Assembly (NCBI RefSeq): GCF_030813055.1
Contig: NZ_JAUSTW010000006.1
Location: forward strand, 248,001-312,000
Reading direction: 5' to 3'
Source of the DNA: Neobacillus ginsengisoli
GTDB lineage: Bacteria; Bacillota; Bacilli; Bacillales_B; DSM-18226
Length of the DNA: 64,000 nucleotides
Part shown: piece by piece, positions 3,575-37,704 of the stretch
Numbering within the stretch: the first letter of the stretch is position 1
How the letters are laid out: the number at the start of each line of letters is the position of its first letter
Notes under the pieces: model-generated
Databases searched by the model: none
What the model was told of the DNA's origin: nothing
Seen by the model: only the letters and a program-made list of their open reading frames with translations
Made by a program: the position numbers and the translations under genes

Positions 3575-5311
3575 ATGAATAGAGAATTATCAAAAAAGAT
3601 CCCTGTACATTTAAAGCAATATATTTCAAAGCAATATTACAATAGCTATACTCCAATTGACCATGCCGTTTGGAGATTTATCATGAAGCAAAATCATTAT
3701 TTTTTAAAAGAAATTGCCCATCCGGCATATGTAAATGGGCTAAGAGATTCGGGGATAAAAACCGAATCGATTCCAAAAGTGGATGAAATGAATACAAGCT
3801 TAGCAAGGTTTGGTTGGGGGGCGGTGACCATTGATGGCTTAATACCCGGGTCAGCCTTTTATGCTTTTCTGGCAAACGGCATTTTACCAATAGCAACGGA
3901 AATTAGGAAATTGCAAAATATTGCTTATACTCCTGCACCGGATATGATCCATGAAGCAGCTGGGCACGCTCCGATTTTATTAGATCAATCCTACAGGGAA
4001 TTTGTAAAAAAAATTGGCAGGATGGGTGCCAAGGCCATCTCCAGCAAGGAAAAACTGGATGTATTTAAAGCAGTTCGTCATTTAACGATTGTTGCCGAGG
4101 ACCCAAAATCTACTTCTGAACAAATTAAGGAAGCGGAAATGAAGGTGGCTGAGGCAAGAAAAAAGGTGAGAGGTATAACGGAAGCAGATCAGGTTTCACG
4201 CTTGTTTTGGTGGACAGTTGAATATGGGTTAGTAGGGGAACTAAGCAGGCCAAAAATATATGGAGCTGGCTTGCTTTCATCCGTGGGAGAGAGCCAAAGC
4301 TGTTTATCAGATGAAGTAAGAAAGATTCCATTTTCTGTTGAAGCGTGTATACAAACTGCATATGATGTGACAAAACCGCAGCCCCAATTATTTGTTTGTA
4401 GGGACTTTGAAGAATTAACGGCTGCGATTGATCAATTTGCTGCAACTATGGCCTTTCAAAAAGGCGGTACCGAAAGTCTGGAAAAAGCCTTGCATTCTGA
4501 GAGTGTAGCGACGATTGAATATTCCTCCGGCTTGCAAGTAACCGGCATTCTAACAACTATTTTAAAAGATGATGAAGGTGAAGCAGTTTATATCCGCACA
4601 AAAGGACCAACAGCGTTAGCATTAAATGATAAACAATTACCCAACCATGGTAAAGAAACTCACTATAAAGGCTTTGGAGCGCCGATTGGTAAATTAACAG
4701 GAGATCTTGTTCTGGAAGATTGTTCTAAAAAACAATTATCTGATCTGGGAATTATTGAAGGAAGTGAGGCCATTTTAAAGTTTCACAACGGCTTAACGGT
4801 AAATGGAATCGTAACGAATATCTTATTTTCAGAACAAAAACCAATACTCATTTCATTTAAGAACAGCACAGTAATATTTAAGGAACAAGTACTATTTGAA
4901 AAAGCTTGGGGGACATTTGATATGGCAGTTGGGGAAAGTATATCTTCTGTATTTGCAGGAGCGGCTGATCCGGATATGTATTTTGATTTGGAGCAGGAAG
5001 AAGGGACAGAAGGAAAGATAGCGAATAAAGATTGGACTGAAATAGAAAATTTTTACGGCGAAATTCGCAGATTACGTGAGCATTCTAATTGGGATGAACA
5101 CTTGTCACGAATCAATGAAATTTTAGCCGTATTGGATGATCAGTACCCAAATGAATGGTTGCTGCGTCTTGAATTACTGGAACTCTTTAACATTCATAAT
5201 GTTCAGAGTGAACCTGTCATAAAGATTGAAGAAATGTTAAAAAACACCAATTGGGAAAAATCCGTCAAACAGATGATTCAACGCGGTTTGACACTCATAA
5301 ATAAATGCTAA
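3575..5311 (+). CDS. Biopterin-dependent aromatic amino acid hydroxylase with long C-terminal extension
   Basis: A 578-residue protein whose first ~290 residues match the pterin-dependent phenylalanine/tyrosine/tryptophan hydroxylase fold. The iron-binding facial triad is visible as H126 and H131 in MIHEAAGHAPILL and E216 in FWWTVEYGLV. The reaction would be tetrahydropterin- and O2-dependent ring hydroxylation, most likely phenylalanine to tyrosine. Residues ~300-578 form an extension I cannot assign; classic bacterial PhhA proteins are about 260-300 residues. No pterin-carbinolamine dehydratase gene lies nearby. AAGGAGGG before the ATG fixes the start. It forms a single-gene unit ending in a strong terminator. 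Confidence 0.88.
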   Translation: MNRELSKKIPVHLKQYISKQYYNSYTPIDHAVWRFIMKQNHYFLKEIAHPAYVNGLRDSGIKTESIPKVDEMNTSLARFGWGAVTIDGLIPGSAFYAFLANGILPIATEIRKLQNIAYTPAPDMIHEAAGHAPILLDQSYREFVKKIGRMGAKAISSKEKLDVFKAVRHLTIVAEDPKSTSEQIKEAEMKVAEARKKVRGITEADQVSRLFWWTVEYGLVGELSRPKIYGAGLLSSVGESQSCLSDEVRKIPFSVEACIQTAYDVTKPQPQLFVCRDFEELTAAIDQFAATMAFQKGGTESLEKALHSESVATIEYSSGLQVTGILTTILKDDEGEAVYIRTKGPTALALNDKQLPNHGKETHYKGFGAPIGKLTGDLVLEDCSKKQLSDLGIIEGSEAILKFHNGLTVNGIVTNILFSEQKPILISFKNSTVIFKEQVLFEKAWGTFDMAVGESISSVFAGAADPDMYFDLEQEEGTEGKIANKDWTEIENFYGEIRRLREHSNWDEHLSRINEILAVLDDQYPNEWLLRLELLELFNIHNVQSEPVIKIEEMLKNTNWEKSVKQMIQRGLTLINKC

Positions 5312-20483: not shown

Positions 20484-20937
20484 TTAAATATTAAAAATAT
20501 TATGACTTTTGTAATATTACTTTCATTATATGCTGATTGACATAAAAAAGACAAATTTATTCGTTATATTAAAAAGGGGTAAAACTTAGGATTTTCCCAC
20601 AAAATGAAAAGCAAAAAATTAGCCTACTTATTGAAAAAGTTTATAAAAATTTCCAGAAATTGCAGACAAAAAGGGGGGATTCGACTGAAATTACCTCTTT
20701 TTTTCATTATTTTTACAAGAATCAGTGGTCAAAATGGTTATTTTGGATAATTTAACCAAGTAATTTGTAGAAATATAGACTATTTTGTGAGAAAAAATGA
20801 TTAGAATTTTTTGAAAAATTGACAAAATCTAACACCCTACTAAAAAAGGACTATATATAATGTAAATATAATTCGGAATTAAGTAATTAGCCCTATCGGG
20901 ATAGAGAAATAAAAAGGTATGAAGCTGATAGTAAGCA

Positions 20938-21042
20938 ATAACGGAAACAGAAAAAGGCAAACCTATTGAAAAAGAGGGACGCAAAGCCGAGGATCTAAGG
21001 TAATGTAGATTGCTATGATGGCCGGGCTACCTGGGATACGAA
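20938..21042 (+). ncRNA. Cyclic-di-GMP-I (GEMM-I) riboswitch
   Basis: The conserved core is present in order: AAAAAGGCAAACC, a GAAA-type loop helix, GGGACGCAAAGCC (tetraloop receptor strand), then P3 closing with CTATGATGGCCGGGCTACC. This is the class I c-di-GMP aptamer as I know it. It ends only about ten bases before the SD sequence AGGGGG of the sinI-like gene, and no terminator stem with U-run lies between them, so control of translation initiation is more likely than attenuation. Whether ligand turns the gene on or off cannot be read from the sequence. Confidence 0.92.
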
Positions 21043-21064
21043 ATGTATTTTAGGGGGTAAGATT

Positions 21065-21217
21065 GTGGTGGTAGAAACGGAAAGAAAAGTAGAAAGAATG
21101 GATGAGGATTGGGTCGCATTAATTTTAGAGGCAAAAGAACTAGGAATTACGAAAGAATCGGTTCGTGATTTTCTAAAACAGAAGGATGTAAAAGAACGGT
21201 TAATTGAAAACCGATAA
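21065..21217 (+). CDS. sinI: SinI-like antirepressor of SinR, preceded by c-di-GMP riboswitch
   Basis: A 50-residue protein beginning with GTG (AGGGGG seven bases upstream). The core DEDWVALILEAKELGITKESVRDFL matches the SinI antirepressor domain that dimerises with SinR and pulls it off DNA. In B. subtilis sinI lies directly upstream of sinR on the same strand; here the two are convergent, with a shared terminator between them. The in-frame ATG at 21098 would cut into the domain and has no ribosome binding site. Expression is presumably set by c-di-GMP through the leader aptamer (inference). Confidence 0.85.
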   Translation: MVVETERKVERMDEDWVALILEAKELGITKESVRDFLKQKDVKERLIENR

Positions 21218-21233
21218 TTTACATACGCAAAAC

Positions 21234-21285
21234 AAAAAAGCATTTCTACAAATGATGTTACTATTTGTAGAATGCTTTCTTCTTT
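21234..21285. terminator. Bidirectional terminator between sinI and sinR
   Basis: AAAGCATTTCTACAAAT and ATTTGTAGAATGCTTT form a 16-bp stem with one bulged T. It is flanked by an A-run (AAAAAA) and TCTTCTTTT. Confidence 0.88.
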
Positions 21286-21302
21286 TGTAAACATGCCTGA
21301 GT

Positions 21303-21632
21303 CTATTGGTTGTTATTCTGGTTAATGCGCCACTTATTAAATTCAAGGAAATCTCGAAATTGCTCCTTGGATACTCCGGAATTCATTGCTTCTTTGACAA
21401 GATTCATCCAATCGCTGTCTAAATCCTCTTTATTAATTTGTTCAAGGATTAAATTCTCAACAGGGACGCTTAAAACAGAGGAAATCTTTTCAAGAACCTG
21501 TATTGAAGGGTTACTTTGCAAATTTCTTTCAATAGCACTTAAATAAGATTTAGCGACCCCTGCTTGATCCGCAAGTTCAGATAGTGACATCTTTTTTTCT
21601 AATCGTAATTTTTTTATTCGTTCACCGATCAT
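21303..21632 (-). CDS. sinR: SinR-like master repressor of biofilm genes
   Basis: A 109-residue protein with the length and two-domain layout of SinR (111 in B. subtilis). The N-terminal XRE helix-turn-helix reads MSLSELADQAGVAKSYLSAI with ERNLQSNPSIQVLEKIS. The C-terminal helical hook DLDSDWMNLVKEAMNSGVSK, QFRDFLEFNKW is the part that contacts SinI. SinR represses matrix genes (eps, tapA) in relatives. The AT-rich upstream region contains several CGAAC/GTTCG half-sites but no proven operator. It faces the sinI-like gene. Confidence 0.92.
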   Translation of the reverse strand: MIGERIKKLRLEKKMSLSELADQAGVAKSYLSAIERNLQSNPSIQVLEKISSVLSVPVENLILEQINKEDLDSDWMNLVKEAMNSGVSKEQFRDFLEFNKWRINQNNNQ

Positions 21633-21769
21633 TGAGACTCACACACCCATTTTTATTTATATATATACGATAATTTTATCAAAAAGAATGAAAAAGTTCC
21701 ATATTACGAACGAATTATTTTGAACCAAAAAACGAACATTAAACATCATTATAGCGATTAGAGGTTAAA

Positions 21770-21902
21770 AATCACACGAAAAGGCAGCAATTAATTGCAG
21801 TTGCTTGGAAAAATTATTAGATAGCGATAATATAAAGAGAGTGTTCCCAAAACTCTCCTTTAATATTAAAGTTCGTGTGATTAAGAGAAATCTTTCACGA
21901 AC
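21770..21902 (+). other. Nested inverted-repeat element, candidate structured leader RNA
   Basis: AATCACACGAA (21770) and TTCGTGTGATT (21872) form an 11-bp perfect outer stem. Inside are GCAGC/GTTGC, ATTAT/ATAAT and AAAGAGAGT/ACTCTCCTTT hairpins. The 3' outer arm (GTTCGTG at 21871) can instead pair with CACGAAC at 21896-21902, giving mutually exclusive folds. A G-U pair in one inner stem favours the plus strand as RNA. It fills most of the 318-bp gap between divergent sinR and the aminopeptidase gene. A DNA-level element, such as a MITE relic, is possible. Confidence 0.4.
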
Positions 21903-21950
21903 GATAACGCTTAGTATACATAAAAATAATTAAAAAAGGCTGGGAAGAAA

Positions 21951-22697
21951 ATGATTGTACTTAAGTCTGTTCGGGAAATTGAAGCCATGAAAAAAGCAGG
22001 AGAAATACTTGCTACATGTCATAAAGAAATAGCCAAATTGATTAAACCCGGCATTACAACTTGGGAAATTGACGAGTTTGTTGAAAAGTTCCTGAGAGAG
22101 CATCAGGCCACCCCTGAACAAAAGGGGTATAAAGGCTATAAGTATGCAACGTGTGCAAGTATAAATGATGAAATCTGTCATGGTTTTCCACGAAAGGAAC
22201 CGTTAAAGGAGGGAGATATTGTTACGGTTGATATGGTCGTAAAATACAACGGTGCATTGGCTGATTCTGCGTGGTCATATGCAGTCGGTAATGTCTCTGA
22301 AGAAACAGTTCATTTATTAAAAGTGACAAAACAGGCTTTGTATAAGGGAATAGAACAATCAGTTGTAGGAAACCGGATTGGGGATATAGGTCACGCAATT
22401 CAAGTCTACGTTGAAAGCGAAGGCCTATCAGTTGTCCGTGATTTTATTGGCCATGGAATTGGTGCTGTGATTCATGAGAAGCCGGATGTACCGCATTACG
22501 GTCTGCCTGGAAAAGGGCCTAGGATCAAGGAAGGTATGGTTTTTACAATTGAACCGATGGTGAATATCGGACTGTATCAAACGAAAATGGATGACAACGG
22601 CTGGACCGCAAGAACGGTTGACGGCAAATATTCAGCGCAATATGAGCATACAATTGCCATCACCAAAGATGGACCGATCATCTTAACTGAACAATAA
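21951..22697 (+). CDS. map: Methionine aminopeptidase, type I (YflG-like)
   Basis: A 248-residue M24 metallopeptidase that removes N-terminal methionine from new proteins. Metal ligands appear as D in VTVDMVVKYNG and DSAWSYAVG, H in GHGIGAVIHEKPDV, E in FTIEPMVNIG and E in QYEHTIAI. The length equals the second B. subtilis enzyme YflG rather than the one in the ribosomal protein operon, so the genome probably has two copies. The ribosome binding site is modest (AAAAAAGG with a long spacer). It is monocistronic, downstream of an unusual inverted-repeat leader. Confidence 0.94.
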   Translation: MIVLKSVREIEAMKKAGEILATCHKEIAKLIKPGITTWEIDEFVEKFLREHQATPEQKGYKGYKYATCASINDEICHGFPRKEPLKEGDIVTVDMVVKYNGALADSAWSYAVGNVSEETVHLLKVTKQALYKGIEQSVVGNRIGDIGHAIQVYVESEGLSVVRDFIGHGIGAVIHEKPDVPHYGLPGKGPRIKEGMVFTIEPMVNIGLYQTKMDDNGWTARTVDGKYSAQYEHTIAITKDGPIILTEQ

Positions 22698-37511: not shown

Positions 37512-37537
37512 AACATCATACTTCAACAAATTAATAA

Positions 37538-37704
37538 ATCGGCTTAATCCTGAGGGAACTCAGGTACGGAGGAACCAATATTTTGGGGTTAATTCTGGGC
37601 AACCAGAAGGGATGAGAAACTCTTTCGCCATCCTACCCGTCAGCTAACTTCGTCGGCTAAAGCGAAGGAGGTCTAAAGACCGCCTAATTCAGGGGGCTTT
37701 TTTG
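37538..37704 (+). ncRNA. Cyclic-di-AMP (ydaO/yuaA) riboswitch with terminator, upstream of kdp
   Basis: Conserved ydaO elements appear in order: GGCTTAATCCTGAGGG, TACGGAGGAACCAAT, TTTTGGGGTTAATTC, the GGGATGAGAAACTC loop region, CCCGTCAGCTAAC and the closing AAAGCGAAGGAGG. A GGTCTAAAGACC hairpin and the run GGGGGCTTTTTT (to 37704) form the expression platform. High c-di-AMP would promote termination and shut potassium uptake, as known for ydaO aptamers on K+ transporter genes. This agrees with the downstream kdp operon. Confidence 0.95.

Follow-up and report, generated by a model that had tools for sequence, protein, structure and literature searches.

The leader of a sinI gene in the window (the whole 64,000-nucleotide stretch of Neobacillus ginsengisoli DNA that was analysed) carries a real and widely conserved c-di-GMP riboswitch, which most likely switches translation ON and is accompanied by a Spo0A-type promoter. 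SinI relieves biofilm genes of their repression, and in B. subtilis its dose decides which cells make matrix; we know of no such direct route from c-di-GMP to SinI dose in that organism, nor of any riboswitch on its sinI gene. In many soil and industrial relatives of Bacillus, c-di-GMP would instead set the dose of SinI by means of a 20-base hairpin, giving a testable answer to the question of how c-di-GMP gets to the SinR circuit. The riboswitch would thereby sit on the protein anti-repressor of a master repressor, as opposed to an enzyme, a transporter or an adhesin. The features are listed in Table 1.

Table 1. Features of the sinI-sinR locus, in window coordinates.
Feature	Position	Strand	Basis
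Promoter-like block TTGACAAAAT-CTAACACCC-...-AAAAAAGGACTATA-TATAAT	20819..20861	+	Recurring pattern upstream of leaders
c-di-GMP-I (GEMM-I) aptamer	20946..21034	+	RF01051 match, 75.2 bits, gathering 35
CAG, candidate 5′ strand of closing helix P1 (partner CUG, 21031-21033)	20948..20950	+	Conserved position
Expression platform: hairpin CCUGGGAUACG / loop AAA / UGUAUUUUAGG	21030..21054	+	11 pairs, alignment and folds
Shine-Dalgarno (SD) AGGGGG	21052..21057	+	Read from sequence
sinI, 50 aa, GTG start (second in-frame GTG at 21068)	21065..21217	+	PF08671
A+T-rich hairpin between convergent sinI and sinR, T runs on both strands	21240..21275	.	Both-strand folds
sinR, 109 aa, helix-turn-helix and SinI-type dimerisation domain	21303..21632	-	PF01381 58.1 bits, PF08671 56.7 bits

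The 50-codon gene, in which the earlier note had recognised a SinI core, indeed encodes a protein whose sole detected family was SinI (PF08671, 46.1 bits for a cut-off of 31.4), with no helix-turn-helix; its GTG start lies seven bases 3′ of the SD AGGGGG. Against the NCBIfam model of the Bacillus SinI equivalog (NF046031) the protein reached 27.9 bits, below the cut-off of 80, so that it is designated here as SinI-family and not as an established orthologue of B. subtilis SinI. The SinI core aligned with B. subtilis SinI (1b0n_B) over 28 residues with an E value of 0.0013, and also with the dimerisation domain of SinR, which SinI mimics. The gene converging with sinI from the opposite strand was likewise identified as the full-length SinR homologue proposed beforehand, with an HTH_3 domain, a C-terminal SinI domain and a score of 127.3 bits against B. 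subtilis SinR (1b0n_A; query residues 1-106 on chain residues 1-109). The two genes share with B. subtilis sinI-sinR (1b0n) their domains, their expected roles as antagonist and repressor and their proximity on the chromosome, but B. subtilis sinI and sinR are arranged in tandem, whereas those of the window are convergent. From the similarity of its core, the 50-aa SinI is predicted to bind the neighbouring SinR. Between the two genes, the region 21222-21292 folded with -20.8 and -24.5 kcal/mol on the two strands, and the A+T-rich hairpin within it is a probable two-way terminator; the consensus terminator scanner did not list this hairpin.

The aptamer was confirmed by homology, an Rfam search of the entire window yielding an RF01051 match (E 5.9e-13) that spans the whole model (positions 1-87 of 87), with four positions flagged as non-standard pairs, and upholding the GEMM-I core that had been read before the small gene. 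The letters GGCAAA, GACGCAAA and the 3′ CC, which correspond to the ligand contacts of Vc2, were all present in the RF01051 alignment; in crystal structures of the c-di-GMP-I class, one of the two 3′ C's pairs with the ligand. By this homology the aptamer is predicted to bind c-di-GMP. A distance of about ten bases between the end of the aptamer and the ribosome binding site had been proposed and needs correcting, as the 3′ CC has its last base at 21031 and some 20 bases separate it from the SD; these 20 bases are a conserved stretch and form the switching hairpin described below. The trinucleotide CAG was found at the 5′ position of P1 in most of the leaders tabulated (n=112 distinct), and from it we infer a closing helix with the CUG partner, a pairing that cannot form as written in several leaders. 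Insertions occur within the aptamers of four leaders (L082, L236, L042 and L206), by position in the P3 loop and with the remainder of the aptamer intact, and they stretch the aptamer matches to 142-187 bases in L042, L206 and L236; some of these inserts resemble mobile or repeat sequence.

Eleven base pairs join the segment 21030-21040 to the segment 21044-21054, and the feet of this hairpin belong to both neighbouring elements: its first two C's are the aptamer CC (21030-21031) and its last AGG is the start of the SD (21052-21054). When distinct segments from relatives were aligned (n=95), 94.6% of the cells were paired, compared to 25-60% with one arm slid. The alignment comprised 95 of 113 distinct segments, the 18 omitted being 14 that resembled retained rows, one of which (L227) had lost the second C, and four short-platform leaders unable to form a hairpin of this type (L051, L183, L202 and L203). 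Covariation was rejected as proof of the platform: changes on both sides affected 3 pairs and 4 cells among the 95 segments, no more than in shuffles, and RNAalifold retained the upper six pairs alone. The signal for the platform hairpin is conservation, not covariation.

Partition-function folds were then considered for 142 of the 143 distinct leaders (L115 was left out). The probability of pairing between the CC and the SD had a mean of 0.886 and a median of 0.990, versus a mean of 0.254 with the spacer shuffled. Because the CC is fixed by the aptamer and the G's are fixed by the SD, complementarity between them is partly forced, an objection which the spacer-shuffle control meets only in part. 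Withholding the two C's raised the median openness of the SD from 0.34 to 0.79, with an increase in 138 of the 142 leaders, and smaller fold runs were concordant. The SD failed to open in four leaders and five more paired weakly or hardly at all; L159, L243, L223, L175 and L227 are among these weak leaders, and in some of them the C's or the SD were mislocated. Imposing P1 on the window leader left the SD 86-99% unpaired. As a check of specificity, none of 24 c-di-GMP-I loci in the same genomes without SinI downstream carried the hairpin motif, versus 3 of 6 loci with SinI, in a comparison covering 30 of the 54 RF01051 matches. Two paralogous and more distant leaders, L026 and L020, retained a hairpin of different sequence (CCUAAAAUA/UAUUUUAGG); L020, from a N. 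muris genome, places a like aptamer and SD hairpin before a 70-aa gene that the SinI pattern does not match.

These predicted, mutually exclusive pairings suggest how the switch would operate. Without c-di-GMP, the CC would start the hairpin whose far arm contains the beginning of the SD, and ribosomes would be excluded; with c-di-GMP bound, ligand and closing helix would occupy the CC, preventing the hairpin from closing at its base and leaving the SD free. Since the ligand-held CC and P1 are both incompatible with the foot of the hairpin that covers the SD, and since the SD opens when the CC is taken, sinI translation should be switched ON by c-di-GMP, a direction that follows from the folding models. 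The SinI so produced would bind SinR and derepress the SinR targets, from which a matrix output may follow. It could be argued that the element, though a genuine riboswitch, switches sinI OFF, or that its effect falls on the length or stability of the transcript and not on the SD. The c-di-GMP-I class does include both ON and OFF riboswitches, the upper part of the platform hairpin is A-U rich with few U's after it, and the -20.8 kcal/mol hairpin 3′ of sinI could influence stability. We regard this as rather unlikely, however, given that the scanner listed nothing resembling a terminator, stem plus U run, on the + strand between the aptamer and sinI, and that in 138 of 142 leaders the SD becomes accessible under the pairings predicted with ligand. 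A c-di-GMP-I riboswitch that works as a translational ON switch of sinI, with input from a Spo0A-type promoter and with SinI lifting SinR repression, is what we consider probable. Expression of sinI in B. thuringiensis 407 has been reported to rise at high c-di-GMP, the same direction as the predicted ON response, and the same source names two switches, one 'off', ahead of a chemotaxis gene, and one 'on', ahead of cbpA (PMC7793685).

Genome-wide counts were obtained from the genomes of relatives. A search of relatives' contigs with the 50-aa protein found seven relatives, five of them with a c-di-GMP-I aptamer immediately upstream of the gene; the nearest was Neobacillus pocheonensis, with 92% identity in the part that matched. 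GGDEF proteins were present in 7 of 7 relatives searched for them. In the family of N. pocheonensis, PF08671 matches were present in at least 188 of the 193 genomes, and matches to a stand-alone SinI alignment in at least 187 of 193. Loci were fetched, among the matches listed, from 179 of these genomes, the other 14 lying outside the set. The proposed search of other genomes for GEMM-I followed by SinI turned out positive in 160 of the 179: 146 by a text pattern combining the aptamer core with a downstream SinI pattern, 13 by Rfam, and one further genome (G132) with an aptamer of 71.8 bits. The Rfam scans covered 40 loci, mostly pattern-negative, and added 14 genomes to those with the aptamer, the SinI pattern being present in 13 of the 14; in G015 the aptamer was present and the adjoining gene missed the SinI pattern. 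The aptamer was not detected in 18 fetched genomes, some of which were covered by a paralogous SinI or SinR neighbourhood alone. Gene order was conserved as well: of the 148 cases checked, window counted in, 138 had a convergent sinR no more than 1.3 kb away. RF01051 matched none of 14 control genomes, B. subtilis among them, and a plasmid collection gave no match to window positions 20500-22000. With the Rfam match, its recurrence in 160 of 179 genomes and a shared SD-sequestering platform, the view of the earlier note that sinI is wired to c-di-GMP through RNA is well supported.

The association extends to the Peribacillus family, where SinI-like matches were found in 41 of 43 genomes and the aptamer preceded the SinI gene in 19 of the 20 loci scanned (30 were fetched). 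Most aptamer-sinI loci of this family have a different leader type; P. frigoritolerans (L021) combines the aptamer, a hairpin platform like that at 21030-21054, sinI and a convergent sinR. The Peribacillus-type platform (UUACCACAAG...GGGUGG) was discarded as independent support, with a pairing probability of 0.62 versus 0.59 when shuffled and an SD that opened in 8 of 16 leaders. As to additional copies, N. pocheonensis has two more SinI genes away from sinR (L026 and L033), each with a c-di-GMP-I aptamer, scoring 66.5-67.4 bits with RF03167. On contig 1 of N. muris, an aptamer-less sinI copy (L006/L072) retains ATTTTAGGGGTGAG before its start and looks as if its aptamer had decayed; the same genome also has an aptamer-sinI copy at L236.

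Such copies bear on whether the 50-aa protein, behind an intact aptamer, might serve some other SinR-like partner and not be the antagonist of the adjoining SinR. A score under the NCBIfam equivalog cut-off would be compatible with this, as would the presence in some genomes of several SinI-like genes, each behind an aptamer of the c-di-GMP-I class, including the two of N. pocheonensis found besides the sinR-adjacent one. But sinR is convergent in 138 of 148 cases, and the core can be aligned to SinI of B. subtilis as well as to the dimerisation domain of SinR, so we consider it quite improbable. That the element is an aptamer-like sequence arisen by chance, or a decayed one with a non-functional switch, is hardly credible: although 18 fetched family genomes had no detected aptamer and G015 had one without the SinI pattern, the match reaches 75.2 bits against a gathering threshold of 35 and the aptamer accompanies sinI in 160 of 179 genomes.

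Returning to the translational ON switch, a promoter-like block upstream of the leader would supply its transcriptional input. The block combines a Spo0A-box-like TTGACAA with a -10 hexamer (20856-20861) and has no -35 at normal spacing, resembling activator-dependent promoters in this respect; in relatives it recurs as TTGACAAAAT-AACACCC-...-TATAAT. Among 116 non-redundant upstream regions, the pattern GACARR..WAYA..WAAT was present in 92, where shuffles gave 1.7 (sd 1.2); YGACAAA was present in 86 versus 6.8, and the exact Spo0A (0A) box in 27 versus 3.1. A SinR-box-like AAAGNAC lay beside the -10 in 62 regions versus 1.1, and the exact SinR box in 18 versus 0.3. A promoter scanner reported three sites where shuffles gave 6.1, with none at the conserved block. 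Assignment of the block to Spo0A, which we infer from its box-like sequence, would mean that Spo0A probably sets transcription of the leader. Since the block precedes the leader in most relatives, the contrast with Spo0A control implied in the earlier note is not supported; Spo0A control has probably been kept, with c-di-GMP as a second, translational input to sinI.

If Spo0A sets transcription and c-di-GMP sets translation, sinI would need both inputs. A broader reading, which we put forward tentatively and would not yet favour, is that of a two-key biofilm switch in two families of Bacillus relatives. Were this true, matrix repression would be lifted only with Spo0A and c-di-GMP both high, the SinR-box-like AAAGNAC beside the -10 may add feedback, B. 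subtilis, whose control genome gave no c-di-GMP-I match, would either have dropped the RNA half or have lacked it all along, and the aptamers on further SinI paralogues would feed c-di-GMP into a set of anti-repressors. Concerning possible outputs, TasA-like matches (PF12389) were found in 94 of the 193 family genomes, and in 23 genomes picked by eye, B. methanolicus included, they lie no more than 4 kb from sinI or sinR; the same search of 193 genomes gave no TasA match in N. pocheonensis, the nearest to the window, a result that counts against the main reading.

The earlier note also held that no system of this kind had been described. As a prediction it has been listed: in B. methanolicus MGA3, four putative c-di-GMP riboswitches precede genes including sinI, and a table entry reads (c-di-GMP)-sinI, BMMGA3_08510 (PMC4342826, 2015). 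It is the same aptamer class before sinI, obtained from 5′-UTRs defined by RNA-seq together with Rfam; in the portions of that article available, the report consists of the table row and half a sentence, without platform, direction, distribution, sinR convergence or test (PMC4342826). The B. methanolicus leader (L120) scored 82.2 bits in our set. No experimental study of it was found in the papers searched, which did not cover subscription journals and preprints. The available portions of PMC2614493, PMC12747935 and PMC10240345 contain nothing on a sinI riboswitch, and the sinI named in PMC10240345 is a Sinorhizobium gene of the same name.

The c-di-GMP-I riboswitches known from the B. cereus group, Bc1, Bc2/cap (cbpA) and the triple-tandem Bc3-5, have the same ligand class, also occur in relatives of Bacillus and connect c-di-GMP to adhesion or regulation; Bc1 is described as acting through two terminators and Bc2 as controlling an adhesin (PMC11218506, PMC4933901, PMC4759541). 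Unlike Bc1 and Bc2, the sinI platform is predicted to be translational and its target is the anti-repressor of a master regulator. The parts are known, and aptamer and sinI have appeared together in one earlier listing; as far as the literature was searched, what is new is the platform, the direction, the convergence and the breadth.

Elsewhere in the window, a c-di-AMP (ydaO) riboswitch at 37531-37673 (73.8 bits) constitutes a second cyclic-dinucleotide riboswitch, and downstream of it lie kdpA, a kdpB-like gene, kdpC and a gene for KdpD with a universal-stress domain. Positions 3575-5311 encode a biopterin-dependent aromatic amino acid hydroxylase (PF00351, 111.8 bits), an enzyme less usual in Bacillus.
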